Origin: Vicingus serpentipes
GTDB taxonomy: Bacteria; Bacteroidota; Bacteroidia; Flavobacteriales_E; Vicingaceae
Assembly: GCA_024103385.1 (NCBI GenBank)
Contig: JAGFIT010000014.1
Span: 1 to 64,000 of the forward strand
Direction: 5' to 3'
DNA: 64,000 nt
A model generated the notes under the pieces. That model was given only the letters and a program-made list of their open reading frames with translations, was not told where the DNA came from and ran no database searches. Every line of letters begins with the position of its first letter. Position 1 is the first letter of the stretch. Made by a program: the position numbers and the translations under genes. Of this stretch, positions 31,988 through 62,645 are shown piece by piece.

Positions 31988-33199
31988 TTAATGCTCATGT
32001 CCTCCTTCTTCTTCTGTATTTTTCATTTTAGCCAGTAAAGAAAAAGCTCCTTTGGTTACTAACTGCAGATTTGCTACATCAATATTCTTAATAAAAGATA
32101 TTTCTGTATACCCTTGTTCTGTAACTCCTTTTTGTACTTCCAGCATTTCAAAATAATCATGATCGCCCTTCTTCTCTTTTAAGTGATAAACAAAATACTT
32201 ACCGTCAGACATCACAACGGTTTCTTCAGGAACAGCATTCACTTTGTTTTCATTTAGTTCTATCAGGGCATTGATGTACATTCCGGGTAATAATTCAGTA
32301 TCTTCATTTTCTAAATGAGCATGTACCCGAACAGACCTGTCTTTATCTATTTTTTTCCCGATTAAATAAATTTCTGCTAATCGTTCCTTATTATCTTCAT
32401 TGGGTAGTGTAAACCGTATTTTCTGACCTATTTTTAAGTTCACGATATCTTTTTCATAAACGGTTAACTCTGCATGTAAATGCTCTGTATCCACTATTTC
32501 GAACATCACTTCATTAGGATGGACAAATTTTCCAATATTTACATTTACTTCGGATACATAACCACTTATAGGAGAATAAATCTTTACTTTTCTTGAAATC
32601 TCTTTTTCGGAAAAATTAGCGGTATTGACCCCAATGATTGCTAATTTTTCTTCCAACCCTTTCACCTGAACTTTCATACTCTCATAATCAGATTTGGCTT
32701 GTTGAAATACCTTGGCAGAATTTACATTTTGCTTATTCAACTCTTCCTGTCTTTTAAATTCCAATTCCAGGAATTCCAGCTTACTTTTCTTATCTAAATA
32801 ATCCTGTTGCAACTGAACATAATCAGGGTGTTCCATTACAGCCAATACCTGGCCTTTTTTAACCTTCATACCCTGTAATAATTCTGTATTGTGTACAAAA
32901 CCGCCTAAAGGTGCCGACACACTTACCAGGTTTTGAGGAGGAACATCCATTACTCCGTTAACTTTTAAAACATTGCTTAATGTTTTTTGCTCTATCTTTC
33001 CTGTTTCTATGCCTGCCATTTTATATTGAGCAGCAGTCAGTTTCACGATAGCTTCTTTATCATGAGCTACTGTTTTATTCTTCTCACCCTCTTCAATAGA
33101 GTTATCTGTACAGCCTGATAAAACAAATATTGAAAAAATTACCATGAAAAAGATTCTGTAGATAGAAAGGGGTCTTATATGATTACTATATGTTTTCAT
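31988..33199 (-). CDS. RND efflux periplasmic adaptor (CzcB/CusB type), lipoprotein
   Basis: 403 residues. The N-terminus has a hydrophobic segment ending in a lipobox-like VLSGC, so it is probably membrane-anchored by lipid. Membrane-fusion-protein layout: first half-motif VSAPLGGFVHNTELLQGMKVKKGQ, alpha-hairpin (about 130-200), second half-motif YSPISGYVSEVNVNIGKFV, then beta-barrel domains. His-rich end (EEEGGHEH). It links the CzcA pump to the outer-membrane channel. It is 23 nt after the CzcA-TolC fusion gene. Confidence 0.9.
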   Translation of the reverse strand: MKTYSNHIRPLSIYRIFFMVIFSIFVLSGCTDNSIEEGEKNKTVAHDKEAIVKLTAAQYKMAGIETGKIEQKTLSNVLKVNGVMDVPPQNLVSVSAPLGGFVHNTELLQGMKVKKGQVLAVMEHPDYVQLQQDYLDKKSKLEFLELEFKRQEELNKQNVNSAKVFQQAKSDYESMKVQVKGLEEKLAIIGVNTANFSEKEISRKVKIYSPISGYVSEVNVNIGKFVHPNEVMFEIVDTEHLHAELTVYEKDIVNLKIGQKIRFTLPNEDNKERLAEIYLIGKKIDKDRSVRVHAHLENEDTELLPGMYINALIELNENKVNAVPEETVVMSDGKYFVYHLKEKKGDHDYFEMLEVQKGVTEQGYTEISFIKNIDVANLQLVTKGAFSLLAKMKNTEEEGGHEH

Positions 33200-33222
33200 T
33201 TTATACTATTTTAATTGTATCA

Positions 33223-37602: not shown

Positions 37603-37693
37603 AATAAATCTATTTCTTGTTATGAATATACAATGAATTATTTCTCTCACATTTGTTGGAGGAAATCAATAAAGACGTAATAATTACGGCTTA

Positions 37694-38179
37694 TTAACAA
37701 GAAATAGCAGGAGGTCCTCTATGAGGAGAGGATTCGACAATGAGTAATTTATATCTATTTAAATAAGGTATAGCAAAAGCAAACTCATTATTAGTTTCTA
37801 TAGTTACAGGTCGAATAAAAATTGAAGCAAGAACAGCTATCATATTTATTTCCGATACATCTCTGGAATCAACATTACCTATATTGGAAGTATTAATATG
37901 TTGTTGAAAAATACTTGATTCTGGATGTTCTAATTCACTTAACAGGCAAATCACAAAATCTAATAAACTGTCATCTAAATGATTTGCATGTAATACATCA
38001 TCAGCACCTTTATTTTCAATTTCAACATGGTTATGATTACCGTGATGATTTTTTTCTTCCCCAAAACCTAAATACTCTACATGATTATCAACATGACAAT
38101 GAGGAATTGATTCAACCGCAAAAGCAAATGAATAAGTTAATAATAAAAAAACCGCTATTATTGGTTTGATCAATTTCAT
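37694..38179 (-). CDS. His-rich periplasmic protein upstream of the CzcA pump
   Basis: About 161 residues (start at MKLIKPIIAV, 38179; an ATG two codons upstream is also possible). Signal peptide (cleavage near AFA), then a His-rich stretch (NHHGNHNHVEIE, HANH) that could bind metal, and the tail ESSPHRGPPAISC. The Pro-rich end recalls the small HYC_CC_PP protein in front of the CusA pump. It precedes the pump gene in the same direction, so it may be a metal-binding or sensing partner. Function unknown. Confidence 0.65.
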   Translation of the reverse strand: MKLIKPIIAVFLLLTYSFAFAVESIPHCHVDNHVEYLGFGEEKNHHGNHNHVEIENKGADDVLHANHLDDSLLDFVICLLSELEHPESSIFQQHINTSNIGNVDSRDVSEINMIAVLASIFIRPVTIETNNEFAFAIPYLNRYKLLIVESSPHRGPPAISC

Positions 38180-38246
38180 CCACACAAATATAATTATTAA
38201 TCAGTTATAAAATGAAACATCCATTAAACATTAGAGCGATAATTCA

Positions 38247-40736
38247 CTATATCTTAACTCCTCTCAATCGTAAAGAGTTTGCAATTACGGATACCGAACT
38301 AAAACTCATGGCTGCGGCTGCAATCATTGGAGAAAGTAAAATTCCGAAAACAGGAAACAGAACACCTGCTGCTACCGGAACACCTAACGTATTATAAATA
38401 AATGCAAAAAAGAGGTTCTGCTTGATATTCACCATTACAGCATGACTCAAATTTTTTGCCTTCACAATTCCATGTAAATCACCTTTTACCAAAGTAATCT
38501 CTGAACTTTCTATTGCTACATCTGTCCCTGTACCCATAGCTATTCCCACATCTGCTTTTGCTAATGCAGGCGAGTCATTTATTCCGTCTCCCGCCATTGC
38601 TACTATTTTTCCTTTAGCCTGTAACTCCTTAATCATGTTTAATTTATCTTCAGGTAAACACTCTGCTTTATAATCACTTAGATTCAATTCATCAGCTACT
38701 GCTTTTGCAGTATTGCTATTATCACCTGTCATCATGATTACTTCTACTCCTTTCTCAATCAATTCAGTAATAGCTCGCTTACTAGATTCTTTAATCGCAT
38801 CAGAAATAGCAACATAACCGACAGCTTCTTCCTGAATAGCTATATAGGAAACCGTTTTACCCAACTTCTGTTCTTCAAGTACTTTAGCCTTCAGTTCATT
38901 AGAAACATTCACATGGTATTGTTCCATTAATTTTATATTCCCTAGTGCTACTCTATTTCCTTTTACTGTACCAATAACTCCTTTACCCGTAACTCCTTCA
39001 AAGTCTTTTACATCAATTAATTGGGTTCCTTTTGTTTTACCATACTTTACTACTGCTTCTCCTAAAGGATGTTCACTATTTTGGTTTAATGATGCAATTT
39101 GTTGTATTAAATCTTCTACATTCATACCTTCTATGGCATAGACTTTTTCTACAGAAGGTTTCCCTTCTGTAATGGTTCCTGTTTTGTCCGTTATTAAAAC
39201 ATTTACTTTATTCATGGTTTCGAGGGCTTCGGCATTTTTAATTAAAACACCTGATTGGGCTCCTTTTCCAACTCCAACCATCACCGACATAGGAGTTGCT
39301 AATCCTAAAGCACACGGACAGGCAATAATGAGAACTGCAACAGCATTTACAAAACCATATACATAAGCAGGTTCGGGGCCAAAAACCGCCCATGCCCCAA
39401 AGGTAATCATAGCAATTAAAACAACTATGGGAACAAAATATTTGGTAATGGTATCTACCAGTTTTTGTATGGGGGCACGAGAACGACTGGCATCATTTAC
39501 CATTTGAATAATTTGAGAAAGTAAAGTGTCAGCACCTACTTTTTCGGCTATCATTACAAAAGATTTTGTACCGTTTATCGTTCCTGAACTTACTTTATCC
39601 CCTTCTTTTTTATCTACCGGAATAGGTTCACCGGTAATCATAGATTCATCAATACTACTATGTCCTTCTTTAATTTTACCATCTACAGGAATTTTATCTC
39701 CGGGTTTCACCCTCAATAAATTACCTACCTGAATGTCATGTATCGATATCACTTTATCTTCTCCATTTTCTACCAGTACTGCTTCTGAAGGAGCTAATTT
39801 TAATAGTTCTTTAATGGCTCCACTGGTTCTGCTATGTGCTCTTGCTTCCAGTAACTGCCCTAACAGTACTAAAGTTAAAATAACTACGGTTGCTTCAAAA
39901 TAGAGCAATACCGTACCTGATTCTGCTTTGAACTCTACTGGAAATACGTCCGGAAATAATAACCCTGCCACACTAAACAAAAATGCTACTCCTGTTCCAA
40001 TTCCGACCAATGTAAACATATTTAAGTTCCAGGTAATAATGGATTTCCATGCCCGTACAAAAAACATCCAACAGGTATAAAAAACAACCGGAAGGGTTAA
40101 AATAAACTGTACCCAGTTCCATTTGTTATGATCCATTACGTGAATGAACGGATTATTGGGAAGCATATCACTCATTGAAATAAGAAACACAGGAATGGTA
40201 AACAGCAAAGAGATTTTCATCTTTTTTACCAGATTCTTGTATGTCTTCTGTTCTGAACTTTCTGTAGGTTCTACTGGTACTAAATCCATTCCACATTTTG
40301 GACATGAACCCGGTCCATCCTGTATAACTTCAGGATGCATAGGACAGGTATATTGTTGTTGGGTATTATTAACCTGTGGTTGTTCTACTAAGTCCATTCC
40401 ACATACAGGGCAATCTCCTGGTTTATCGTATGTCTTTTCTCCTTCACAGTGCATCGGGCAATAATAAACTCCATTGCCTTTTTGAGGGGTTCCTTTATGA
40501 TCGTGATGGTGGTGTGTATGATTTCCAGGCAAATCAATTGTATAATGTAATCCGGCTTTTAAAAGTGCATCCTGTAGTTTCTCCAAAGGAATATGCGAGG
40601 ACATTTCAATAGCCACCTCTCCTTTATCAAGATCGACTTCTACATTTTTAATTTCAGATAAACTATTTAACGCTTGTTCTACACTGTTTTGACAACCTGT
40701 GCATGACATTCCGGTAACTTTATAAGTGTGTTTCAT
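38247..40736 (-). CDS. copA: P1B-type copper-translocating ATPase
   Basis: 829 residues. Order: an HMA metal-binding domain with GMSCTGCQ (Cys12, Cys15); a His run ([10 protein letters not shown]); two short Cys-rich heavy-metal-binding domains ([19 protein letters not shown] and [17 protein letters not shown]); eight membrane helices; actuator TGEPIPV; the ion-binding CPC motif in [12 protein letters not shown] near 472; phosphorylation motif DKTGT near 515; MTGDN and [11 protein letters not shown]. It exports Cu(I) from the cytoplasm at the cost of ATP. It lies between the regulator gene and the His-rich gene. Confidence 0.95.
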
Positions 40737-40818
40737 AACTTCGTTATTTATGTTTATTCAAAAGTAATGTAGCTTTATCCCCTATTTATTATACAATTTT
40801 TATAATTTATTCTATAAT

Positions 40819-41388
40819 TTACAGTTCATCAAGCGGGAGCCTTTTTTTTGAATCTTTTAGCTTCCTGAAATAACCGGGAGTTAATCCTGTTTCTTTTTTA
40901 AATTGTTTGCTTAAATGTGCTACACTACTGTACCCCATTTGAAAAGCAATTTCATTCAAAGTCAATTCATCATACAAAAGCAGTTCTTTGACTCGTTCTA
41001 TTTTTAATTTGATAAAATAGTGTTCAATTGTTGTTCCTGCGGTTGAAGAAAATAAATTACTGATGTAGTTATAATCAAATTTCAACTCTTTTTCGAGGTA
41101 ATCAGAAAGGTTTAATCGTTTTATATCTTCCAAACATTCTTCAACATATTGAAGAATGGAAAGTTTAATTTTTTCTATTAACTGACTACTTTTTGTATCT
41201 AACAATTCAAATCCATGAGCTTCTAATTCTTTTCGAAGAAGTTGTAATTGATGTTGTGTAAGTTTCTCTTCTTTTAGTTTTAACTCTCCCAACTGAATAG
41301 ATAAAGTGTTTAATTTCAATTTATCAACCAGTGATTGAACTACATAAACACACCTGTTACATACCATATTTTTTATATACAGAATCAT
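40819..41388 (-). CDS. AraC family regulator with N-terminal HMA-like metal-binding arm
   Basis: I prefer ATG 41388 (MILYIKNMVCNRCVYVVQ) because from there the N-terminus reads like a heavy-metal-associated domain with a CxxC pair (MVCNRC); ATG 41421 adds 11 residues. About 189 residues. The C-terminal 100 residues are an AraC double helix-turn-helix (LTLNEIAFQMGYSSVAHLSKQFKKETGLTPGYFRK). It is placed inside the metal cluster between the copper ATPase and the metal-binding lipoprotein. Inference: a metal-sensing transcription factor for this cluster. Confidence 0.85.
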   Translation of the reverse strand: MILYIKNMVCNRCVYVVQSLVDKLKLNTLSIQLGELKLKEEKLTQHQLQLLRKELEAHGFELLDTKSSQLIEKIKLSILQYVEECLEDIKRLNLSDYLEKELKFDYNYISNLFSSTAGTTIEHYFIKLKIERVKELLLYDELTLNEIAFQMGYSSVAHLSKQFKKETGLTPGYFRKLKDSKKRLPLDEL

Positions 41389-41456
41389 GATATATTCTTT
41401 TAAACTTCTTATGAATGACATGAGCCCACCTTAAATTTAAGATGGGCTCAACTTCA

Positions 41457-41750
41457 TTATTCTTCTATTTCTTCCAATGCTTCCAGATCCATTCCGCATT
41501 TAGGACACTGACTAGGCTCTTCGTACATTTTATCTCCTTCGCATTTCATTGGACATTGGTACATGACATGCTCTTCATGCATTTCTTCATCATGGTGATC
41601 CATGGCTTCTTCATGGTGTTCTCCATCCATGTGCTCCGTGTGTTCCATATTTTCACTTTCTTGATTTTCAGCATTTCCGCAGCCAATAAATGTTGCACTT
41701 CCTAATACAAATAATAGTGCTGTTCCTAAGATTAAAACTTGTTTTTTCAT
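41457..41750 (-). CDS. Lipoprotein with heavy-metal-binding domain
   Basis: 97 residues. Lipobox TFIGC near residue 24, a His/Glu-rich linker (EHTEHMDGEHHEEAMDHH), then one short metal-binding domain with YQCPMKCEGDKMYEEP and CPKCGMDLE, the same module as in the copper ATPase and CusB. Likely a periplasmic copper scavenger or donor to the CusB adaptor encoded 29 nt upstream. Confidence 0.85.
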   Translation of the reverse strand: MKKQVLILGTALLFVLGSATFIGCGNAENQESENMEHTEHMDGEHHEEAMDHHDEEMHEEHVMYQCPMKCEGDKMYEEPSQCPKCGMDLEALEEIEE

Positions 41751-41778
41751 CTTGTTTTGATTTTGATTAATAAATTAT

Positions 41779-43530
41779 TTAGTGATTATGCCCTGTCACA
41801 GGCTTTGATTTTTCTGTTTTAATTTCTGAATTGATTACTTTTTGTACTTCACCGCATTTCAACATTTTTTCTCCGAAATATGGATTACGTATTTCTTCTA
41901 TCTCACTCAACCATATAGCTCCTTCATCATTTACTGCCATCGGGCAATAATCTTTATATGCCTTTACACCATGTAATCCAAAAGCTTCTACAACAACAGA
42001 TAAATTTTCGGATAAAGGCTCAAAAGAAATTCGTTGTTCATCTATATTCTTAGCCAATATAAAATCATTAATGGCTGCTTCTATATTTTTACCCTTCTTC
42101 ATCCATAATTCATGTGCTTCATCATGCAACTGAGTCATATCAAACGTTTTTAGTTTTTGTTGAAGCGATGTTCCTTTTTGCTTCGCCTTTTCAAAATCTG
42201 ATTCCACCAAGGCATTTTTAAGCGCTATATACTGGTTAAAAAGCAAGGTGAGTTGTTGTTTAAATCCTTCTGAAACGTGGTATTGTTCCATATAGCCCGT
42301 AGTTTGTTGGTTCATCATACTGTTTTTACCAGCCAACTGAGCTGCGGCGTCTACTTTAAAGGTTCCGTTCACCACTATTTCTTCTCCTTCTTCCAATCCA
42401 TGTTCCACCATATAATGAGTTCCCAAATCCAGGCCGATAGTGATTTCTCTGAACTGGAAGGTGGGCTTATTGGTATTAGGTAACTTAGTATAAACTATCG
42501 ATCGTTTTCCTGTCCACATTACAGCAGATTTAGGCACTATTATTTTCGGCTCATCAATAGGAAGTTTTGCAGTTATTCTTCCTTCAGCAAACATCTCTGG
42601 TTTTAATAACTGATTAGTATTTTTAAAATCAATCCTAACGGATGCCGTTCTCGTTTTAGCGTTAATGATTGGATCAATAAAATCAATTTTACCTTCATAT
42701 GTTTTACCTGCCACTGAACTAATTTTAAAATTTACCTGATCACCTTTTTTAACCCAAGGAATATCTGATTCATAAGCATCAAAAACAATCCAAACATTAG
42801 TGAGGTCAACTATTTCAAAAAGCTTGCTCCCTTCTTTTACATAATCTCCCAAGGTAGCCATTCGCATAGTAACCACCCCTGAAAGAGGAGAAATAATATC
42901 AATCTCTTGTTTAGGCTCTCCTCCTTTTTCAATCTCATTGACTTGATTCTCCGTAATGTTCCAAAGTTTTAATTTATTTCGCGCTGCTTTATACAACATC
43001 GGATTGGCTTCTTTGTATTTTAATGCCTCAAACAATTCTTGTTGTGCTGTAATAAGCTCAGGCGAATAAATAGAAGCCAATTTTTGTCCTTTTGAAACTT
43101 GTACTCCTGTAAAATCGACATACAATTTTTCAATTCTCCCTGCAAATCGTGAAGTGATAATGGACATTTTTCGTTCATCTACCTTCACTTTTCCCTGCAT
43201 AAATATTTCTTTTTCAGGACTGGTCAATTCAACTTTAGCTGTTTGGATGTCTGCCAAACGAATTGCTTCTTCGCTCATTTCCATGTTTAAAGGACTATCA
43301 CCTACTTCATCCACAGGAATCAAATCCATACCACAAATCGGACATTTACCCGGCTCGTTTTGTCTTATTTGAGGGTGCATGGAACAAGTCCATACTTCAG
43401 CCTTTTTAATAGGATTAGCATAATCTTCTTTTACCCCTTTTGGAGAATTTGAAAAGAAAATTTTCCCTAGTATTAATCCTGCAATTAAAGCAAGGATTAT
43501 GATTACTATTTTATTATTAAATATCTTCAT
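41779..43530 (-). CDS. cusB: CusB-type RND adaptor with metal-binding domain and DUF3347
   Basis: 583 residues. N-terminal membrane anchor (8-28); a Cys/His metal-binding module (TCSMHPQIRQ..CPICGMDL, about 48-75); membrane-fusion domains (MSIITSRFAGRIEKLYV; IISPLSGVVTMRMATLGDYV); and a C-terminal DUF3347 domain (about 415-580) with FGLHGVKAYKDYCPMAVNDEG, a putative extra metal site. It connects the CusA pump and CusC channel and passes periplasmic Cu(I)/Ag(I). It is 12 nt after the cusC gene. Confidence 0.93.
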   Translation of the reverse strand: MKIFNNKIVIIILALIAGLILGKIFFSNSPKGVKEDYANPIKKAEVWTCSMHPQIRQNEPGKCPICGMDLIPVDEVGDSPLNMEMSEEAIRLADIQTAKVELTSPEKEIFMQGKVKVDERKMSIITSRFAGRIEKLYVDFTGVQVSKGQKLASIYSPELITAQQELFEALKYKEANPMLYKAARNKLKLWNITENQVNEIEKGGEPKQEIDIISPLSGVVTMRMATLGDYVKEGSKLFEIVDLTNVWIVFDAYESDIPWVKKGDQVNFKISSVAGKTYEGKIDFIDPIINAKTRTASVRIDFKNTNQLLKPEMFAEGRITAKLPIDEPKIIVPKSAVMWTGKRSIVYTKLPNTNKPTFQFREITIGLDLGTHYMVEHGLEEGEEIVVNGTFKVDAAAQLAGKNSMMNQQTTGYMEQYHVSEGFKQQLTLLFNQYIALKNALVESDFEKAKQKGTSLQQKLKTFDMTQLHDEAHELWMKKGKNIEAAINDFILAKNIDEQRISFEPLSENLSVVVEAFGLHGVKAYKDYCPMAVNDEGAIWLSEIEEIRNPYFGEKMLKCGEVQKVINSEIKTEKSKPVTGHNH

Positions 43531-43541
43531 CTTATTAAATT

Positions 43542-44762
43542 TTAGTACATCGATTCCATTTTAGCTACAGCAACATTTTTATCTTTTACCGCTGTAATTA
43601 ATTGTAAATCATAGTTTAACATCATGCGTTGAATTCTTAATATTTCTTCAAAATCGTTTCCTGAATTGGCATAACCACTAACAATTATTTCCAATGCTTG
43701 TTTCGCCTTTTGGTTTTGCTGGTTATACAAGGTTATTCTTCTGGTAGCATCATCGTATTCTACCCACGTCATTTCCAATTCATTTTCTAACATATTTTTT
43801 TTGTTTTCCAGTTGAAACTGAACACTTTCCATATTCAAATTAGCTTCGTTGTGTTGTGCGTTATACTTTTTACGATATATCGGAATACTTATTGAAATCA
43901 TCGGCATAAAGGCATCCTTACCACTATTAGGCACCACCATATCACTCTCTCCTATCATAAAATAGTTTAATCCCAACCCTAACATTGGCAATCCTTGTTT
44001 TTTAGCTACAAGGGAAGAAGAATGAAAGGCTTCTTTTTTCATTTCCATACTCAATAGTTCATTGTTAGATGAATTAATACTATCCATTAATTGCTCTTTA
44101 GTAACCATCACATTCAGTACTTCATTCTTTTCAGGAAATGCAATTGTTGTTTGAGGGTCTTGGTTTAAGATATTGTTGAACATTACTTTTTTCACTTTTA
44201 TTTTATCTTTAACCAACAATAATTTATTCTCCAATTCAGCAATCTCCATTTGTATTCTGAGTACATCCACCATTCCTTTTTTTGAACCTGTTTCAAATTT
44301 TTGAGTGGCTAAGGATTCGAAACTTTTTAGAATTTGAAGATTTGCTTCAATGATATCAATGGTTTGTTTCATAGAAGTTAACTCATACCATCCTTTTTTT
44401 ACATTGTAAAACAATTGTTTTTTCCGGGCTTCAAAATCTTCGTACTTTGATTTAGCCATATTAGCAAAAACCTGCTCCTTGGCATTTAATGTCCCCATCC
44501 ATGGAAACATTTGCATTACACCAATCTTCGCCTGCTGTGGTCCATTACGAGTTTCTATGGGGCTGATAAAATAACCAAAATCCAATACCGGATCGGGTAA
44601 ACTTCCTGCCTGGCTTACTTTTTCCAGTGAAGCTTCATAGTCTTTAAATTTTGCTTTTAACCCTGGATTATTTTCTGCAGCTATTTTTAAATAATCATTT
44701 AATGTTTGAGCATTTAGTTCAGCAATAAACAAAAGAAACAATATGTATATCAATTTTTTCAT
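43542..44762 (-). CDS. cusC: TolC family outer-membrane channel (CusC type)
   Basis: 406 residues, signal peptide (cleavage near LNAQ), then the duplicated helical-hairpin layout of TolC proteins, with opening LNDYLKIAAENNPGLKAKFKDYEAS and the VLRIQMEIAELENKLL helix. Forms the outer-membrane duct of the Cus-type tripartite pump. Overlaps the cusA stop by 4 nt, so is translationally coupled. Confidence 0.9.
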   Translation of the reverse strand: MKKLIYILFLLFIAELNAQTLNDYLKIAAENNPGLKAKFKDYEASLEKVSQAGSLPDPVLDFGYFISPIETRNGPQQAKIGVMQMFPWMGTLNAKEQVFANMAKSKYEDFEARKKQLFYNVKKGWYELTSMKQTIDIIEANLQILKSFESLATQKFETGSKKGMVDVLRIQMEIAELENKLLLVKDKIKVKKVMFNNILNQDPQTTIAFPEKNEVLNVMVTKEQLMDSINSSNNELLSMEMKKEAFHSSSLVAKKQGLPMLGLGLNYFMIGESDMVVPNSGKDAFMPMISISIPIYRKKYNAQHNEANLNMESVQFQLENKKNMLENELEMTWVEYDDATRRITLYNQQNQKAKQALEIIVSGYANSGNDFEEILRIQRMMLNYDLQLITAVKDKNVAVAKMESMY

Positions 44763-47700
44763 TGTACAGTCTTTTTAATGGTTCGTTCCTTCCAGGCAGA
44801 ATACAACACCGGAATTACAAATAATGTTATTACTGAAACTGCCATTCCTCCAAATGAGGGAATTGCCATTGGCACCATAATATCTGCTCCTTTACCTGTT
44901 GAAGTAAGTACTGGAATTAATGCCAGTATAGTTGTGGCAGAGGTCATTAAACAAGGTCTGATTCTTCTATCCCCAGCTTTTATTACAGCTTCTCTAATTG
45001 TTTTTTTTGTGTTTGGCTGATCTTCTTTAAACACTTGATTTAAATAAGTAGACATTACAATTCCATCGTCATCAACTATTCCAAATAATGCAATAAAACC
45101 AACCCAAACCGCTACGCTCAAGTTAATAGGGTGCATTTGAAACAAGTCACGCAAATTGGTGTCAAATACGTCAAAATTCATAAACCATGGTTGAGCATAC
45201 AACCAAATCATAATAAACCCTCCAGAAAAAGCAATAATAAGATTGGTAAAAATCATGGAAGTAGTAACTACTGATTTTAACTCAAAGTAGAGTAACAGGA
45301 AAATGATAATTAATGCTAGTGGCACTACTAACGACAATCGCTTTTCGGCTCTTATCTGGTTTTCATAATTCCCTGCAAATTCATAGGTTACTCCTTCAGG
45401 TATTTCAAGATCACCATTATCAACTAACATTTTGATATGTTCTTGTGCATTTTCAACTACATCTACCTCGGCATATTCTGTTAATTTATCAAACAATACA
45501 AACCCTAATAAAAAAGTATCTTCACTTTTAATGGCTTGTGGTCCTTGAACATAATTAATGGTAGAAATTTCGCCTAATTGTATTTGAACTCCATTGCTTG
45601 CCGGAATCAATATTTTCTCAATCTTATCTGGAGCATCTCTTAGCTCTCTGGCATAACGAACCCTTATTGGATATCGTTCTCTACCATCGACCGTTGTTGA
45701 AAGTTGCATCCCTCCTATAGCTACTTCAATGTAGTGCTGAACTTGTTGAATGGTTAATCCATATCGGGCTAATGCTTTTCTATCTAAATCAATTTCCAGA
45801 TACGGTTTCCCTACAATACGATCGGCAAAAACAGCTTCTTTTTTTACTCCTTCTACTTGTTTTAAAGCGTCTTCCAGTTGTAACCCAAACGCTTCTATGG
45901 TTTTGAGATCAGGACCTTTTACTTTAATTCCCATGGGTGCTCGCATACCTGTTTGTAGCATAATTAACCTTGTTTCAATAGGCTGTAACTTAGGAGCAGA
46001 AGTAACCCCGGGTAATTGAATTTTAGCAATCTCTTTCCAGATATCATCCGGTGAATGGATGTGCTCCCTCCAGTTACGAAAGAATTTCCCATTCTTATCT
46101 GCTATCAAATTTCCATGCTTATCTCTCACATAATTATCATTGTCATCTACCTTAAACCTCAGTCTATTCCCATCTTCATCTACTTTGTATTCTGATTGAT
46201 AATTAATGATGTTCTCATACATAGAAATAGGTGCAGGATCCAAAGCAGATTCTACCCTCCCTAATTTACCTACTACTGATTCTACTTCAGGAATAGCTGT
46301 AACGGCCATATCTAGTTTTTGAACTACATCAATATTTTCTTCCATACCTGAATGTGGCATAGAAGTGGGCATTAACAAAAATGACCCTTCATCTAAGCTG
46401 GGCATAAATTCTTTTCCTGTGCCAGGAAAGGACTCATGCATAAAGGAATAAAAATCGTTACTCATTATTTTATCCTTGCTTAACCTGAATATATCCTTAA
46501 ATCCTAACCAGCTAAATAACCCCCAAACAACAATTATTAAAGGGATTGATAAGAACAATGCCTTATTATTTAAACACCAATTAAGTATCTTTTTATATTT
46601 CCAAATGATTAGCCAAAAGAAACCTATTACTAATCCTATAAATAATATCACAAAGAAATAATTAACTCCCCCACTTTTATCTGGTCCAAGTGGCAACCAA
46701 TGATCTGACATGAGGCCTGACAGAATTAGTGAAAACATAATTATATCCAACCGTCTGATAATGGGTTTAATTTTTTCTGAAAACCATTGTGCAATCCATT
46801 CTGACAATCCGGCAACTCCAACACCAATTAATAGCCATCCAACAAATCCAAAAACAAAAATTAAAATAACTCCAGCAATTATTGCTAATACATTTAACCC
46901 ATTTCTAAGTTTTTTACCATTTATTTTAATGGAAAATAACCAATGTGCAAATGCAGGTAAAATGATTATTGCTACAATTATAGATGCTATTAAGGCAAAA
47001 GTTTTGGTATAAGCTAATGGTTTAAATAGTTTTCCTTCTGCCCCATCCATTGCAAATACGGGTATAAAGCTAATTATGGTAGAAATTACCGCTACTAAAA
47101 CAGGAGAAGCTACTTCGGTAGTCGCCTTGTAAATGGTTTCTAATTTTGATTCTCCTTGAGGTGCTATTTTAAAGTGTCGGAGCATATTTTCGGTGAGCAC
47201 AATACCCATATCGGCTATTGTTCCTATCGCGATAGCTATTCCAGAAAGTGCTACAATATTAGCATCAACCCCAAAATAACGCATACCAATAAAACAAATT
47301 AATACAGCTATAGGAATTAAGGATGAGATTAATAACGAAGCTCTAAGGTTGAGCACCATTAAAATAATAACAATAATCGTAATGACAATTTCTTCGAACA
47401 ATGCATCATTTAATGTTCCCAAGGTCTCTTTTATTAAACTTGTTCTATCATAAAATGGGACAATAGTAACTTTAGAAAAAGTACCATCAGACAAGATTTT
47501 AGAGGGTAATCCCGGACTAATATTTTCGATTTGGTCTTTAACGTTGTTTATTACTTCTAACGGATTGGCTCCGTACCTTGCAACAACTACACCTCCAACA
47601 GCTTCTGCACCAGATTTGTCCAATGCTCCTCTTCGTGAGGCAGGTCCTAAGTTAACTTTTGCAATGTCTTTAATACGAACGGGAACATTATCTCTTACTA

Positions 47701-48499
47701 CAACTACGGCTTCTTCCAGGTCATTAATATTATCGATATATCCCAATCCACGTACTAGATACTCTGCACGGTTGATCTCTATTGTTTTTGCTCCTACATC
47801 CAAGTTGCTGTTCTTCACAGCATTCATTACTTGCATAATATTGATACCAGCAGCTTTCATAGCATTAGGGTCAATATCTACCTGGTACTCTTTTACAAAA
47901 CCTCCAATGGAAGCTACTTCGGCCACTCCATCTACTGAGGCCAATCCATATTTCACCGTAAAATCCTGAATAGAACGTAATTCCTGAGGATCCCAACCTC
48001 CGGTCGGTTTTCCATCTTTATCCCTTCCTTCCAAAGTGTACCAGTAAATTTGACCTAAAGCTGTAGCGTCAGGCCCCAATGCAGGCTGAACTCCTTCAGG
48101 CAAGATTCCTGAGGATAAAGAATTTAGTTTTTCCAATACTCTTGAACGGCTCCAGTAAAAATCTACGTCTTCATTAAAAATGATGTAAATGCTCGAAAAC
48201 CCAAACATAGAATTACTTCTAATGGTTTTTACTCCCGGAACTCCTAATAAAGCAGTCGTTAATGGATAAGTAATCTGATCATCCACATCTTGTGGGGAAC
48301 GTCCCATCCACTTGGTAAAAACGATCTGTTGATTTTCACCTATATCAGGAATGGCATCAACAGCCACGGGACTTCTTGGAATAATATCGGTATCCCAGTT
48401 AAAGGGGGCTGTAGCTATCCCCCATCCTACAAACAAGACGAGAGTTAATACAGCGAACAGCTTATTTTCAAGAAAAAATCTTATTATTTTGTTTAACAT
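44759..48499 (-). CDS. cusA: CusA-type Cu(I)/Ag(I) RND efflux pump
   Basis: 1246 residues, about 200 longer than E. coli CusA. The signature GIAIAIGTIADMGIVLTEN (near 420-440) is of the monovalent-ion (Cu/Ag) class, unlike the DFG..D..E of the other pump. Methionine-bearing segments LMPTSMPHSGMEE and TRLIMLQTGMRAPMGIKV align with the CusA copper-binding Met region. The extra length comes from a membrane insertion of several helices after about 530 and a charged periplasmic insertion (about 755-800, DEDGNRLRFKVDDND). Encoded just before cusC. Confidence 0.93.
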   Translation of the reverse strand: MLNKIIRFFLENKLFAVLTLVLFVGWGIATAPFNWDTDIIPRSPVAVDAIPDIGENQQIVFTKWMGRSPQDVDDQITYPLTTALLGVPGVKTIRSNSMFGFSSIYIIFNEDVDFYWSRSRVLEKLNSLSSGILPEGVQPALGPDATALGQIYWYTLEGRDKDGKPTGGWDPQELRSIQDFTVKYGLASVDGVAEVASIGGFVKEYQVDIDPNAMKAAGINIMQVMNAVKNSNLDVGAKTIEINRAEYLVRGLGYIDNINDLEEAVVVVRDNVPVRIKDIAKVNLGPASRRGALDKSGAEAVGGVVVARYGANPLEVINNVKDQIENISPGLPSKILSDGTFSKVTIVPFYDRTSLIKETLGTLNDALFEEIVITIIVIILMVLNLRASLLISSLIPIAVLICFIGMRYFGVDANIVALSGIAIAIGTIADMGIVLTENMLRHFKIAPQGESKLETIYKATTEVASPVLVAVISTIISFIPVFAMDGAEGKLFKPLAYTKTFALIASIIVAIIILPAFAHWLFSIKINGKKLRNGLNVLAIIAGVILIFVFGFVGWLLIGVGVAGLSEWIAQWFSEKIKPIIRRLDIIMFSLILSGLMSDHWLPLGPDKSGGVNYFFVILFIGLVIGFFWLIIWKYKKILNWCLNNKALFLSIPLIIVVWGLFSWLGFKDIFRLSKDKIMSNDFYSFMHESFPGTGKEFMPSLDEGSFLLMPTSMPHSGMEENIDVVQKLDMAVTAIPEVESVVGKLGRVESALDPAPISMYENIINYQSEYKVDEDGNRLRFKVDDNDNYVRDKHGNLIADKNGKFFRNWREHIHSPDDIWKEIAKIQLPGVTSAPKLQPIETRLIMLQTGMRAPMGIKVKGPDLKTIEAFGLQLEDALKQVEGVKKEAVFADRIVGKPYLEIDLDRKALARYGLTIQQVQHYIEVAIGGMQLSTTVDGRERYPIRVRYARELRDAPDKIEKILIPASNGVQIQLGEISTINYVQGPQAIKSEDTFLLGFVLFDKLTEYAEVDVVENAQEHIKMLVDNGDLEIPEGVTYEFAGNYENQIRAEKRLSLVVPLALIIIFLLLYFELKSVVTTSMIFTNLIIAFSGGFIMIWLYAQPWFMNFDVFDTNLRDLFQMHPINLSVAVWVGFIALFGIVDDDGIVMSTYLNQVFKEDQPNTKKTIREAVIKAGDRRIRPCLMTSATTILALIPVLTSTGKGADIMVPMAIPSFGGMAVSVITLFVIPVLYSAWKERTIKKTVQ

Positions 48500-48586
48500 G
48501 GTTTTTCATTTTGATATTAATAAATGTCATATACGACAAACCACATCTTCTTTTTAAAAGAAAATGTGACCTAATACCAAAATGAA

Positions 48587-48997
48587 TCAAATTAAAAAGG
48601 ACTGAATCAGTACAGGTACGTCCCTGACCAAGGGTGGTGGAGAGTAATCGCTGTAAAAAACCTCTTGAGTAGTTTCCAAAGAAACCAAATTTAACACTAC
48701 AGTTATTAATACAGCTGATAATTCTTTGTTAAGTTTTACCTCGTTAGCTTGTTGAGTGCAATCTTCATCAAATTGTACCAATTGAAATTCATCTTGGCAA
48801 CAATTTGAAGCAATCATTACACCTTTTTCACAAGAATTGCTATTGTTATCTTCTTCCATTCCACAAGAAACATCACTATGAATCATACCCATAACAGTCT
48901 TCACCTTTTTTCCACCACAAATATGTGAGGAAATAGTAAACCCCATAGAAGTTACCAGAATAACAAAACTCAATATGATAGCTAACAGCTTTTCCAT
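48587..48997 (-). CDS. HYC_CC_PP family small periplasmic protein
   Basis: 136 residues. Signal peptide; HICGGKKVKT (the H-x-C element), a double-Cys SNCCQDEF and a Pro-rich tail DYSPPPLVRDVP match the family named for these motifs. It is found next to copper/efflux genes in Bacteroidota; the role is unknown, with the Cys and His pattern pointing to metal handling. First gene of the minus-strand cus operon. Confidence 0.8.
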   Translation of the reverse strand: MEKLLAIILSFVILVTSMGFTISSHICGGKKVKTVMGMIHSDVSCGMEEDNNSNSCEKGVMIASNCCQDEFQLVQFDEDCTQQANEVKLNKELSAVLITVVLNLVSLETTQEVFYSDYSPPPLVRDVPVLIQSFLI

Positions 48998-54978: not shown

Positions 54979-55428
54979 ATGGAAACATTAAAAATTGAAA
55001 TCCCGAAAGGGTTTGAAGTAAAAGACTTTAACAAGAAAACAGGTGAAATCACTTTTAAGGAAAAACCAAAAGAAGTAACAGAAAGAATTAAAACCGTTGA
55101 TGATGTGTTAAATGACAATGGAGTAACCATGTCTGAACTTGACAAGATGTTTAAGGGAGTTCCTGAACATTTTAAGCACCAGTACATCGCTGAACTATTG
55201 TGTAAGTCATTAAAAGAAGGATGGGAGCCAGACTGGGATAATTCGAATGAATATAAATATTATCCTTGGTTTGTTATGAGTTCTTCGGGCTTTCGGTATA
55301 ACGACTGCGTTGGCTGGAGTGCGGGTTCGGCTGTCGGCTCTCGCCTTTGCTTTAAATCAAGAAAATTAGCTGTTTATGCCGGAGAGCAATTCACAGAATT
55401 ATATAAACAATTTATGATAACTAAATAA
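54979..55428 (+). CDS. DGR target (variable) protein 1
   Basis: 149 residues, no signal peptide or membrane helix. N-terminal part (1-70) is charged; residues 80-100 read EGWEPDWDNSNEYKYYPWF; residues 101-126 are encoded by the variable repeat and show the DGR hallmark SSGFRYNDCVGWSAGSAVGS and then RLCFKS; a helical tail (AGEQFTELYKQF) follows. The order tryptophan-rich strand, GFR, variable stretch, RLCF is like the C-terminal ligand-binding (C-type-lectin-like) part of DGR proteins. All 15 differences from the template are at template adenines. The ligand is unknown. Confidence 0.88.
   Translation: METLKIEIPKGFEVKDFNKKTGEITFKEKPKEVTERIKTVDDVLNDNGVTMSELDKMFKGVPEHFKHQYIAELLCKSLKEGWEPDWDNSNEYKYYPWFVMSSSGFRYNDCVGWSAGSAVGSRLCFKSRKLAVYAGEQFTELYKQFMITK
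55279..55353 (+). other. DGR variable repeat 1 (VR1)
   Basis: Aligned to TR 55856-55930 with a constant offset of 577 and no gaps. Fifteen substitutions, all at TR adenines: TR positions 55884, 55887, 55889, 55890, 55896, 55898, 55901, 55902, 55907, 55908 in the core, plus 55913, 55920, 55924, 55929, 55930 at the 3' end. All other bases are identical. Confidence 0.95.
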
Positions 55429-55436
55429 TTAAAGAG

Positions 55437-55826
55437 ATGAAAGAAGTAAAAAAGTTAAAAACATTTGAAGACGCTTGTAAAATAGAAAAATTAGATCCTA
55501 AAAAGATATTACCTGATTTTTCCTGTTATCCTGAAGAAGATAGAAAAGCGTTAGAAGCTCATGCAAAATTATTAGTAGTTGTGAAAGCTGCTAATAGACT
55601 AGACAATAATAATAAAGAATGGACGCCTGATTGGACAGATGGCAAATGGAAATATGAACCTTGGTTTGTTATGAATGAGGGTTCTTCGGGCTTTCGGTAT
55701 GACGTCTTCGATTACTGGTTTACGCTTTCGTGTGTCGGCTCTCGCCTTTGCTTTAAATCGGAAGACGTATGTGAATACATTACTAATCAATTTATCGATT
55801 TATACAGAGATTATTTTATGAAGTAA
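55437..55826 (+). CDS. DGR target (variable) protein 2
   Basis: 129 residues, paralogous to the preceding protein in its C-terminal half (EWTPDWTDGKWKYEPWF, then variable segment, then RLCFKS and QFIDLYRDYF) but with an unrelated N-terminus (MKEVKKLKTFEDACKIEKLD). The variable repeat covers residues 82-107: SSGFRYDVFDYWFTLSCVGS. Again all template mismatches are at adenines. No secretion signal. Placed 8 nt after target 1, so both are made from one transcript. Inference: two scaffolds share one template. Confidence 0.88.
   Translation: MKEVKKLKTFEDACKIEKLDPKKILPDFSCYPEEDRKALEAHAKLLVVVKAANRLDNNNKEWTPDWTDGKWKYEPWFVMNEGSSGFRYDVFDYWFTLSCVGSRLCFKSEDVCEYITNQFIDLYRDYFMK
55681..55754 (+). other. DGR variable repeat 2 (VR2)
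   Basis: Aligned to TR 55857-55930 with a constant offset of 176. Fifteen substitutions, all at TR adenines: 55877, 55881, 55884, 55889, 55895, 55896, 55901, 55902, 55907, 55908 in the core, plus the same five 3' positions as VR1. The core changes differ from those in VR1, so diversification was independent. Confidence 0.95.
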
Positions 55827-55855
55827 AAAAACAGGTTGTGTGATGCGTTGAGCCG

Positions 55856-55930
55856 AGTTCTTCGGGCTTTCGGTATAACGACTACGATAACTGGAATACG
55901 AATTCGAATGTCAGCTCTCACCTATGCTAA
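55856..55930 (+). other. DGR template repeat (TR)
   Basis: Non-coding 75-bp repeat between target gene 2 and the reverse transcriptase. Read in the target frame it gives SSGFRYNDYDNWNTNSNVSS, with many AAC/AAT codons (the codon giving most change when adenines are randomised), and ends in TAA where both VRs have TTT. The core (55871-55912) has 15 adenines; 10 are substituted in VR1 and 10 in VR2, and no other base ever differs. Confidence 0.95.
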
Positions 55931-55949
55931 ACTATTTGCATTACAAACC

Positions 55950-55964
55950 TTGCCATCATGGCAA
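55950..55964 (+). other. Short hairpin downstream of TR
   Basis: TTGCCA TCA TGGCAA forms a 6-bp perfect stem with a 3-nt loop, 19 nt after the TR. It also includes the ATG of a 17-codon frame. It may belong to the structured TR RNA. Confidence 0.4.
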
Positions 55965-56011
55965 AAAAATACAAACCAATAAAAGGCATTGGTACTGAAA
56001 AAGGAAGATGA
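55958..56011 (+). CDS. 17-aa leader frame overlapping the RT start
   Basis: ATG 55958 opens MAKKYKPIKGIGTEKGR and stops at TGA 56009-56011, overlapping the RT ATG as ATGA. The overlap suggests translational coupling, but so short a frame may be chance, and TR-RT RNA is also a structured transcript. Confidence 0.3.
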   Translation: MAKKYKPIKGIGTEKGR

Positions 56012-56991
56012 CTTTTAACAAGCAAAGAATGAAAAGAATAGGCAACATATATAACAAGATAATCAGCATTGAAAATCTACTTCTTGCCGATAAGATTGCT
56101 CAAAAAGGTAAATCAGAGCAATACGGAGTAAAACTTCATAACAGAAACAAAGAAACAAATATTAAGGAGTTACATTACTTATTGTCTTCAGGACAATATC
56201 GAACTTCCAATTATGATGTTTTCACTGTTTATGAACCAAAAGAACGTGTTGTTTATAGGCTACCTTATTACCCTGACAGAATTGTACATCATGCAATAAT
56301 GAATATCCTTGAACCAATATTTGTAAGTCATTTCACAGCTGATACCTACAGTTGTATCAAAGGGAGAGGGATACATCATTTATTAAGAAAACTAAAAACA
56401 GATTTAAAAGATGTTGGAGGCACAAAATACTGCCTAAAATTAGATATTAAGAAGTTTTATCCGAACATAGACCATGATGTATTAAAACACCTTTTAAGTA
56501 GAAAATTTAAGGATCAAAACTTGTTAAGCTTATTGTATGAAATAATTGATAGTGCTGAAGGGCTACCAATAGGGAATTATTTAAGTCAGTATTTTGCCAA
56601 CTTCTATTTGTCAAATTTCGACCATTGGATAAAAGAGGAATTAAAAGTAAAGTACTATTACCGTTATGCTGATGATATTGTAATACTATCTAACAATAAG
56701 AATCACTTACACATTATTTTAACGCATATTAAATCCTACTTAAAAGAGCATTTAAAATTAAGTGTTAAGCAAAATTATCAGGTATTTCCTGTTGAATCAA
56801 GAGGAATAGACTTTGTCGGATATGTCTTTTATCATACTCATATAAAATTGCGCAAGAGAATTAAACAAAATTTTGCAAGGAAACTTAAAAAAGGAGCTAG
56901 TGAAGAGACTATAGCTTCATACATGGGTTGGCTTAAACACGCCAATGCAATTAATCTAACTAAAAAACTTATCAATAATGAACAGCTTTAA
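56008..56991 (+). CDS. DGR reverse transcriptase
   Basis: 327 residues, compact RT without maturase, endonuclease or RNase H domain. Motifs: KYCLKLDIKKFYPNID with catalytic Asp146; GLPIGNYLSQYFANFYL (185-201), the DGR-type IGNxxSQ motif that replaces the QG-x-x-x-SP of retrons and group II introns; and YRYADDIVIL with catalytic YADD at 220-223. The thumb-like C-terminus ends at about 300. It copies the TR RNA with errors at adenines and the cDNA replaces VR sequence. ATG 56008 overlaps the leader stop; a second ATG at 56029 (MKRIGN) is possible. Confidence 0.95.
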   Translation: MTFNKQRMKRIGNIYNKIISIENLLLADKIAQKGKSEQYGVKLHNRNKETNIKELHYLLSSGQYRTSNYDVFTVYEPKERVVYRLPYYPDRIVHHAIMNILEPIFVSHFTADTYSCIKGRGIHHLLRKLKTDLKDVGGTKYCLKLDIKKFYPNIDHDVLKHLLSRKFKDQNLLSLLYEIIDSAEGLPIGNYLSQYFANFYLSNFDHWIKEELKVKYYYRYADDIVILSNNKNHLHIILTHIKSYLKEHLKLSVKQNYQVFPVESRGIDFVGYVFYHTHIKLRKRIKQNFARKLKKGASEETIASYMGWLKHANAINLTKKLINNEQL

Positions 56992-57274
56992 AGATTTTAA
57001 TATAAAACCTAAAATAAACTCCTTTGTTGGAGAGAAAATACAAGTACAAAAACTGTTTAATCTCCCCATAATAGTATTTGACTTTAAAATTGAACCATCA
57101 AAACAGAAAGAAGGTACCGAACTATTAACTCTTCAAATAGAAAAATCTGGTGAAAAAAGAATTGTTTTTACGGGCTCAACTGTATTGATAGATCAAATAA
57201 AAAGAGTTCCGGAAGATAAGTTCCCTTTTATTACTACAATAAAAGGAGATAACGATTATTATGAATTTACTTAG
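56978..57274 (+). CDS. Candidate DGR accessory protein (98 aa), overlaps the RT gene
   Basis: 98 residues starting MNSFKDFNIKPKINSFVGEK, beta-rich and basic, overlapping the RT stop by 14 nt. The later part LLTLQIEKSGEKRIVFTGST suggests a compact beta domain, possibly an OB-like nucleic-acid binder. It is not an Avd protein (Avd is a four-helix bundle of about 120 residues). I recall similar genes behind RTs in other Bacteroidota DGRs, but cannot confirm. Position and overlap make it the best accessory candidate. Confidence 0.65.
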   Translation: MNSFKDFNIKPKINSFVGEKIQVQKLFNLPIIVFDFKIEPSKQKEGTELLTLQIEKSGEKRIVFTGSTVLIDQIKRVPEDKFPFITTIKGDNDYYEFT

Positions 57275-60705: not shown

Positions 60706-60972
60706 ATGAACAAGCATTTTACAAAAGATTACGACATCATTACTGATACTGAAAATCACATAGCAGCTAATGGTGGCGATAAACCATGGATGGGTATTGT
60801 GCCTCACGCAGATATGGATGTAGAATCAATTACTATTGAAGGTAGAGGTCAATTAACAGGGTCAGATGCAGATAATTATGTAGCTGATTTACCGGTTGGT
60901 ATTCCTTTTTTATGTCAAGTTACTCAAATTAAGCTTGGTGGTGGTGGTTGTAAAATGATTAAACCTAATTAA
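60706..60972 (+). CDS. Small phage structural-type protein (88 aa)
   Basis: 88 residues, beta-rich, acidic, with an all-beta C-half (ITIEGRGQLTGSDADNYVAD; CQVTQIKLGGGGCKMIKPN). The style resembles small head-decoration or fibre-attachment proteins, but I do not recognise a family. First gene after the regulatory gap and 3 nt before the next gene. Confidence 0.5.
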   Translation: MNKHFTKDYDIITDTENHIAANGGDKPWMGIVPHADMDVESITIEGRGQLTGSDADNYVADLPVGIPFLCQVTQIKLGGGGCKMIKPN

Positions 60973-60975
60973 TAG

Positions 60976-61746
60976 ATGCCGGGTATTGGTCAAGGTGTTG
61001 GTGTAGGTTTAAATTACATTCCAGGTAATGTATCTACGGATATTTTTCAGCAAATTTTTGCTGATTATAATTTTTACAACATGTGGACTTCTTTAAATGT
61101 TGTTATTGATGGTACTACAACGGTTTTTAACGATTATGCTGGAGAACATAATTTGACTAACTCTAGTGCTGCAAAACAACCATCTTACAATATATCTGGA
61201 AATGTAGGAACTATAGGCCTGCCTACGTTCACATTTGATGGTGTAAGTAATGAGATGGAAAAAATAACGAGCGACTGGAGGATATTAGACGCTACGGGCG
61301 AAATAATAAGTATTTTCAGGGTGTTATCAGGGAATTTCATCAACACATTAACATCCTACAATCCTGGTGCAAGAAATGATTTTGCACAAGTTGTAGGCGC
61401 AGGAACAGCAATGCAGATGGTTTGTGATGATTTATCCAACCCACCAAGAACAACGGCTAACGGAACAATTGATATAATTACATCAGCTCCAACTAATGTA
61501 CACACGATAGGTTGTAGGCCTGGAGATTATTATATGTATAATAATGGGGTTTCTGACGCTTTTAGTGCTTTTATAAACGGAAGTGATAATGGAGCTTGCT
61601 GGCTAGCTGAATTATCAGGAAGAACCGATATTAGTATTGGCCGATTTGCGAATATAGAGTGGTTAATGAGTGGGTATAGACCATATAGTAGCTTAACAGA
61701 TTCAGTTAATTTACATAACGAGTTATTAACAATTATTGGAACTTAG
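60976..61746 (+). CDS. Phage fibre/receptor-binding-like protein, LamG-type
   Basis: 256 residues. A Gly-rich opening (MPGIGQGVGVGLNYIPGN) is followed by a lectin-like beta-sandwich region with FTFDGVSNEMEKI, an inner TIGCRPGDYYMYNNG strand and the end FANIEWLMSGYRPYSSLTD, a layout seen in LamG/concanavalin-like phage fibre domains. It probably binds a surface glycan. It is not the DGR target. Confidence 0.55.
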   Translation: MPGIGQGVGVGLNYIPGNVSTDIFQQIFADYNFYNMWTSLNVVIDGTTTVFNDYAGEHNLTNSSAAKQPSYNISGNVGTIGLPTFTFDGVSNEMEKITSDWRILDATGEIISIFRVLSGNFINTLTSYNPGARNDFAQVVGAGTAMQMVCDDLSNPPRTTANGTIDIITSAPTNVHTIGCRPGDYYMYNNGVSDAFSAFINGSDNGACWLAELSGRTDISIGRFANIEWLMSGYRPYSSLTDSVNLHNELLTIIGT

Positions 61747-62043
61747 ATGGAGGATTTATTTTTACATACATGCTCCTCTATTGAGGACTTCTATATAAAA
61801 GAGAGAATAATTCATAATTTTCTAAAAGAAGATCCTATATATACTTCAGATTTTTATTGTGGAAAAAATGGACAGCCGGATTTATTTAATAAAGATGGTC
61901 TTCCTTTAATTCCAATGATAAAAAATAGACAACTAATAAGTAAGATAGAAAAGTTATCAGAAGTTAAATTTAAAAAAGAGGATAGGGACATTATTAAGAA
62001 AGATTTAATTTCTGTTCGAGTAAAAACCACTCTAAAGAACTAA
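61747..62043 (+). CDS. Phage protein (98 aa), unknown
   Basis: 98 residues starting right at the stop of the fibre gene. Charged and helical (MEDLFLHTCSSIEDFYIKER; KKEDRDIIKKDLISVRVKTT). Possibly a fibre chaperone by position; no motif supports it. Confidence 0.45.
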   Translation: MEDLFLHTCSSIEDFYIKERIIHNFLKEDPIYTSDFYCGKNGQPDLFNKDGLPLIPMIKNRQLISKIEKLSEVKFKKEDRDIIKKDLISVRVKTTLKN

Positions 62044-62120
62044 TCAACAATATTTATTAATTATCAACAAAGGGTTAAAGAGCTGTTTTTGTATTATTAA
62101 ATTTAAGGTGTTTAATAGTT

Positions 62121-62645
62121 ATGCCTAGTTACTACAAATTAGAAATAGACGTCTCTCCGCATGTAAAAAAATACATTGCTTACCACCTTTGCGATAATCC
62201 TGTGCACATTGATTTTGATGCAGATGTTAAGTTAGATAAAAACCATCATATTGGGCTTTTTATTCTTAGTTTAATTCAGAAACAATACAAGCTTCAAAAA
62301 AACAAGAAGGATATTAAGTACAACAATAAGAAAATTAATGCTAAAGTGAATGTATTACTTTCTGAGCGATACGAGAAAGATATAGATCCAAGGTGTAATA
62401 TGTTGGGGATTGATGAAAATGGAGTTAGAAAGCTAGATATGTTTGTTGATGGTCTTTTTCGTCAGGAGTTATTTTTATACCTTAATTCATATCAAATGGT
62501 TAAGGGCGAGAACAGAAAAATTAAAGAAGGAGCACTGCTTTTTTACAAAAAATATAGCCTTACTGACGAAGATATTCCGTTAGATACGCTTTTAAAAAGC
62601 TATAATAGGTATAGATTAAAAAATAAATTTCTAATAATCAATTAG
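62121..62645 (+). CDS. Phage protein (174 aa), unknown
   Basis: 174 residues, highly charged, starts MPSYYKLEIDVSPHVKKYIA; the middle is basic (KKDIKYNNKKINAKV) and the end reads DIPLDTLLKSYNRYRLKNKF. No signal peptide. Similar proteins occur in Bacteroidota prophages between regulatory and head genes, from memory. Function unknown. Confidence 0.5.
   Translation: MPSYYKLEIDVSPHVKKYIAYHLCDNPVHIDFDADVKLDKNHHIGLFILSLIQKQYKLQKNKKDIKYNNKKINAKVNVLLSERYEKDIDPRCNMLGIDENGVRKLDMFVDGLFRQELFLYLNSYQMVKGENRKIKEGALLFYKKYSLTDEDIPLDTLLKSYNRYRLKNKFLIIN

Follow-up and report, generated by a model that had tools for sequence, protein, structure and literature searches.

A conserved type of diversity-generating retroelement in a Vicingus serpentipes prophage, with paired small targets and a putative OB-fold accessory protein in place of Avd

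The diversity-generating retroelement (DGR) described here probably represents a conserved type, situated in a prophage region of early type, in which the small protein orf98 would replace Avd and the targets would be a pair of non-structural proteins. It was found in the window, a stretch of 64,000 nucleotides of Vicingus serpentipes (contig JAGFIT010000014.1). The element is a genuine DGR, a known class with an unusual conserved design that combines paired small targets carrying internal variable repeats (VRs) with an OB-type accessory. Its features are listed below.

54979-55428, + strand: target gene 1 (distal paralogue, 149 aa), an ORF with internal VR1; homologues in 97 loci
55278-55353, + strand: VR1, diversified core about 55300-55331, IMH-like 3' part 55333-55350
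55437-55826, + strand: target gene 2 (paralogue proximal to the template repeat, 129 aa), an ORF with VR2; homologues in 95 loci
55681-55754, + strand: VR2, diversified core about 55701-55732, IMH-like 3' part 55734-55751
55855-55930, + strand: template repeat (TR), non-coding, IMH*-like 3' part 55910-55927
55946-56029, + strand: structured spacer RNA after the TR, similar to Rfam RT-17, with hairpins at about 55950-55964 and 55982-56016
56008-56991, + strand: DGR reverse transcriptase (RT), probable true start 56029
56978-57274, + strand: orf98 (98 aa, phrog_19665), predicted OB-fold accessory, overlapping the RT stop by 14 nt

The original prediction had placed two VR-bearing targets, one TR and a DGR-type RT in a single rightward cluster, and both the coordinates and the repeats were confirmed. 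It had also assigned the element to a Bacteroidota prophage, in agreement with a head maturation protease gene beginning at 63266, a DUF5906 primase-like gene at 50988 and the many relatives of this DGR among viral contigs. The contig ends at 65707, so the right end of the prophage lies beyond view. Between the DGR and the head protease (60706-62645) there are small ORFs with no informative family match. To the left of the prophage, at 31988-48997, the ORF translations indicate a heavy-metal/copper efflux island with RND pumps and a P-type ATPase.

Conserved layout and the orf98 protein

Scans with the RT yielded 70 genome loci and another 80 from viral contigs. Adenine-biased TR/VR pairs were found in 54 of 71 genome loci and 69 of 80 viral-contig loci. 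The small-target type is represented by 95 loci, forming 76 clusters at 90% RT identity, with RTs 57-71% identical to that of the window. There are two VRs in 59 of these clusters, three in 14 and one in 3. The medians for the small-target loci are 75 nt for the VR, 146 aa for the target and 25 residues between the end of the VR and the C-terminus. Each locus opens with a tandem of two targets, occasionally three, of about 115-160 aa apiece, and the TR and the RT follow.

The conserved neighbours of the 98 small-target loci are, on the upstream side, transposition proteins, a transposase, ATPases and primases and, on the downstream side, methyltransferases; genes for tail, portal and terminase proteins are often on the strand opposite to the cassette. 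Terminase genes adjoin the cassette in two loci (L134 and L090), which indicates that it is not always in the early region.

The ORF orf98 belongs to the DGR system. At BLAST sensitivity, all 98 small-target loci have a homologue adjoining the RT, whereas among loci with other targets the figure is 9 of 27; in several relatives whose targets are of another kind, the homologue lies 300-800 nt from the RT. An iterated profile identified further homologues, some of them encoded between target and TR, where Avd is usually located, as in the Bacteroidales C-Lec systems L044, L033 and L048. In ANMV-1 the RT is followed by a homologue at a distance of 2 nt, and in the archaeal vir525, a Methanosarcinales virus, a homologue likewise lies 3' of the RT. 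In the hankyphage, the RT is fused to a phrog_19665 domain (residues 327-433, 3e-18; L160 3023-4327, annotated as a reverse transcriptase only), and RT-orf98 fusions are also present in BT-TP2 and L018. Among 395 genomes of the phylum there are five orf98 carriers, each with the gene beside an RT. No homologue was found with the same-branch RTs of crAss-like phages and Perkons. In the crAss-like phage cr55_1 (L155 7220-7561), the end of the RT is overlapped by a small protein of another family (phrog_11557), perhaps a further type of accessory.

The orf98 protein has one clear PHROG match, phrog_19665, and none to the Avd profile phrog_3206; Avd is a helical bundle, whereas orf98 is predicted to be mostly beta. 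The topology of the AF2 model (pLDDT 86.9, pTM 0.70) fits an OB fold, in which a five-stranded barrel has a helix inserted after the third strand and before the fourth. Its nearest solved folds in VIA are modest matches: the OB domain of RuvBL2 (Z 6.9 over 69 residues, rmsd 2.9), SSB (6.0) and PriB (5.0). The best Foldseek E value, 0.0076, is likewise modest and typical of a common small barrel. The Pfam search of orf98 returned nothing consistent, and no solved structure was matched in the profile search.

With SSB and PriB among these folds and primase genes close by, orf98 might be taken for a phage single-strand DNA-binding replication protein that merely travels with the cassette. We consider this unlikely, since orf98 tracks the DGR RT across phages with unrelated neighbours and in archaeal viruses, is fused to the RT in three systems (hankyphage, BT-TP2 and L018) and, in the genome survey, is never carried away from an RT.

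Avd itself (phrog_3206) is absent from the window contig and from 16 phage records of the small-target type, with BPP-1 and L059 as positive controls, and a phmmer search with BPP-1 Avd found nothing in small-target loci. It was detected in BPP-1, VP58.5, BalMu-1 and L059, and the tested Avd carriers fall outside the clade of the RT tree that bears orf98 homologues. In some phage genomes Avd could be too diverged for phrog_3206. The element had been called complete: its TR, VRs and RT are indeed present, but Avd was not found and orf98 stands in its place. We judge orf98 likely to be the Avd counterpart of one DGR branch.

Wu et al. 2018 reportedly list DGR accessory genes. One accessory suggested there, as far as PMC10053308 relates it in the part available, has no Pfam or CDD entry, and it may be orf98. 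The available parts of the reports on the hankyphage (PMC6199706) and ANMV-1 (PMC4372165) label small ORFs as Avd from size and charge. The small ORFs between the VR or target and the RT in these two viruses, apparently the ones so labelled, gave no match to the Avd profile; in hankyphage p00 this is a 64-aa ORF between VR and TR.

Adenine-specific repeats and the spacer RNA

The TR aligns without gaps to VR1 and to VR2, with 15 mismatches per VR. Recomputation reproduced the 30 adenine mismatches of the original prediction, and there are none at a C, G or T of the TR in either VR. The TR, VR1 and VR2 each occur once in the 3.1-Mb genome. The count and the site of the mismatches therefore stand, but five of the 15 in each VR (TR 55913, 55920, 55924, 55929 and 55930) are common to VR1 and VR2. 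Being identical in both VRs and within the 3' IMH-like stretch (the last 18 nt), they are fixed TR/VR differences, which leaves about 10 mismatches per VR for diversification proper. Translated in frame, the core of the TR gives N-D-Y-D-N-W-N-T-N-S-N; it contains five codons of the form AAY and 14 adenines open to mutation, enough for about 2.7e8 DNA variants per target.

The same specificity is observed across the 95 small-target loci (76 clusters). The VR differs from the TR at 2,289 of 3,324 adenine cells and at 23 of 9,033 non-adenine cells, the latter figure being biased low by a repeat search that allowed at most two non-A mismatches per TR/VR pair. A chance origin of the TR/VR pattern in the window is thereby excluded, and VRs that depart from the TR mainly at other bases were not seen in relatives.

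The boundaries of the rewritten tract were analysed with 79 distinct TRs and 171 VRs. Core TR adenines correspond to all four bases in the VRs, whereas flank adenines do not. The first flank adenine is shared by 76 of the 79 TRs, and 159 of 163 VRs have G in its place; opposite the second, 134 of 136 VRs have G, and opposite the third, 90 of 92 have T. In the window these are TR 55913, 55920 and 55924 (family columns 82, 89 and 93), fixed as G, G and T in the VRs. Throughout the small-target family, the IMH/IMH* difference is a fixed GTCGGCTCTCGCCTTTGC in the VR against GTCAGCTCTCACCTATGC in the TR. The third change, CTA to CTT, is silent in the window frame; its fixation in the DNA suggests that this site lies outside the rewritten tract and would be part of an IMH internal to the coding sequence. 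BPP-1 cDNA synthesis is reported to begin within IMH* (PMC12875486), and the pattern of the window flank fits such a start. Site-specific A-to-I reading as the source of the fixed A-to-G flanks is not favoured, because the third site is fixed as A-to-T.

The spacer RNA of the window scores 36.7 bits (E 9e-5) against RF03020 (RT-17), below the gathering cut-off of 40.4; those of the relatives L034, L044 and L130 are above it. In an alignment of 56 sequences, compensatory changes are found at 10 of 11 pairs of the hairpins. The assignment of the adjoining gene to a DGR RT was upheld, except for its start. This is probably the ATG at 56029 rather than 56008, as the latter lies inside the conserved spacer RNA and relatives begin at the later Met.

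A DGR that was once active and is now silent, with VR differences as relics, would be compatible with data that come from a single assembly. We judge this distinctly unlikely: the RT, both targets and orf98 are intact, neither VR has accumulated a single non-adenine mismatch, and relatives at 57-71% RT identity retain the full set.

The paired small targets

Target 1 is a small soluble protein with an internal VR. Its AF2 model is of high confidence (pLDDT 93.6, pTM 0.83), and the block of lowest confidence, 111-120, is within the variable loop. Foldseek and VIA found no match to a solved fold (VIA Z <=2.5). The best matches among predicted viral structures are uncharacterized phage proteins, including crAss-like ones. 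For the targets, the Pfam search gave nothing consistent and the profile search of solved structures no match.

The closest relationship is with gene 00089 of LoVEphage, to which the target profile is homologous over its full length (hhalign E 2.2e-24); the targets of the window therefore look like relatives of this gene with a shortened VR. Gene 00089 has methyltransferases and a tRNA ligase for neighbours and corresponds to the non-structural DGR target described in Quimbyvirus by Benler et al. (PMC8008677). It differs from its own TR at 11 positions over 112 nt, all at A. The same TR also matches the gene of a LoVEphage tail protein, from which it differs at 14 adenines and at one further position. 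Through this shared TR (L159 5086-5197 and 21016-21600), the small targets may be linked in evolution to the C-Lec targets.

In the available part of Roux et al. 2021 (PMC8144416), DGR targets are typically multi-domain with a C-terminal VR, and viral targets are mostly tail proteins with C-type lectin folds; the small-target type may already be among the target clusters of that study. By this standard, the window would hold an ordinary Avd-type DGR of the BPP-1 kind, in which the diversified products are receptor-binding proteins of the tail and serve host tropism, and orf98 would be irrelevant. The LoVEphage TR, which serves both a tail protein and a small-target homologue, is consistent with such a reading, as is a resemblance to C-Lec targets that is confined to the last 27 columns, at the VR end (hhalign E 6.7e-6). 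The VR of the small targets is not C-terminal, ending about 25 residues before the C-terminus. Yet the targets (115-160 aa) have no tail domains and are mostly beside early genes, their nearest relative is non-structural, and the window contig and the 16 phage records are without Avd. We therefore regard tail-protein diversification as improbable, more so than loss of activity.

TR-proximal targets have a median of 129 aa and distal ones of 155 aa, and with the VR masked they fall mostly into separate groups of the tree. There are five label changes on this tree, compared with a mean of 21 and a minimum of 14 in 2,000 shuffles. By this measure, proximal and distal targets are ancient paralogues retained as a pair. 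Target 2 begins 8 nt after target 1 in the window, and 8 nt is also the median spacing of consecutive targets in small-target loci. Three loci have two VRs in a single ORF (L020 4940-5800, L145 9178-9783 and L152 8901-9578), and two complete target modules are seen in the fused ORF of L020. Paralogy, spacing and fusions together suggest that the pair has been selected to act together. The targets are most likely non-structural, intracellular binding proteins that would act jointly in phage-host or phage-phage conflict; we infer a role directed against host defence or rival phages.

Reverse transcriptase lineage, proposed mechanism and known systems

The RT contains both motifs previously noted, IGNxxSQ (as GLPIGNYLSQ) and YADD (as YRYADD). 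Its best solved relative is 8ub7 (1.9e-45), named just 'Reverse transcriptase' in the PDB file and taken here to be BPP-1 bRT from its chain length (328 aa); group II and retron-type enzymes score about 1e-17 or worse. Comparison with profile sets likewise indicates a DGR-type enzyme, since phrog_1423 matches the window RT (408 bits) much as it does bRT (421 bits). PADLOC matches of the RT were set aside as generic RT cross-matches.

A maximum-likelihood tree of 67 RTs splits the DGRs, the window among them, from four group II RTs with 100/100 support. Retrons were compared by profile and PDB score only. As predicted, the window RT thus groups with DGR RTs and not with group II introns. It falls in a 15-row clade (99/94) consisting solely of small-target systems; the BPP-1 RT is a long branch, which makes its own exact position in the tree unsure. 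A retron or group II intron RT beside chance repeats has next to no probability, since the RT matches generic RT models but scores far below the NCBIfam group II and retron cut-offs, and such an origin is refuted by the adenine-only TR/VR pattern, the 8ub7 match and the tree.

For the conserved DGR type with orf98 in place of Avd, we propose the following mechanism. The TR and the structured spacer would be transcribed, and the RT would copy the TR RNA with errors at adenines. The cDNA would then replace the cores of VR1 and VR2, changing about 10 AAY-rich codons in each small paralogous protein. Conversion would end at the A-free flanks, the 3' flank being an IMH internal to the target gene. 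In place of Avd, the predicted OB-fold protein orf98, with its coupling to the RT, would bind the template RNA or the cDNA as well as the RT. The two diversified targets would then act jointly inside the cell.

A more specific reading is tentative and on balance rather doubtful. The two targets might be the two chains of one binder inside the cell, in a loose analogy to the paired chains of antibodies, with one template diversifying both, in a DGR branch where an RT-coupled OB-fold protein has replaced Avd and nucleic acids are handled by a different mechanism.

The BPP-1 DGR (brt-Avd-Mtd) resembles that of the window in RT family, adenine mutagenesis of TR/VR, the IMH/IMH* difference and a structured spacer RNA between TR and RT. 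It differs in having a 134-nt VR at the C-terminus of one tail protein, instead of internal VRs of about 75 nt in two small targets, and in using Avd and an RF03022 spacer RNA instead of an OB-type accessory and an RT-17-like RNA. Quimbyviridae/LoVEphage share with the window a small non-structural target, homologous over its full length, and adenine-only TR/VR differences (PMC8008677). In LoVEphage, however, a single such target lies at a distance and has a C-Lec-type VR of 112 nt, and a tail target is present as well, whereas in the window the two paralogues adjoin each other, their VRs are shortened and a tail target was not seen. Hankyphage p00 (PMC6199706, PMC12135933) has an RT of the lineage with the phrog_19665 domain and a Bacteroidota host, but one large C-Lec target and an RT-3 spacer RNA. 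The archaeal virus ANMV-1 (PMC4372165) resembles the window in the orf98 homologue just after the RT, which we did not find discussed in the available part of that report, and differs in its single Mtd-like target.

Experimental work on DGRs centres on the Avd-dependent BPP-1. In the system described here, a partner of nucleic-acid-binding type, not assigned before, appears to be used instead of the usual helper, as far as homology and predicted fold can tell. Should orf98 be the accessory throughout a branch comprising Bacteroidota phages, hankyphages and archaeal viruses, it would provide a second machinery for comparison, and its role may explain the small ORFs that have been called Avd from size and charge. 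The conserved pair of small, probably non-structural variable proteins would extend DGR function past host attachment. With about 10 variable codons each, these targets are compact scaffolds for probing what a phage must diversify inside the cell.
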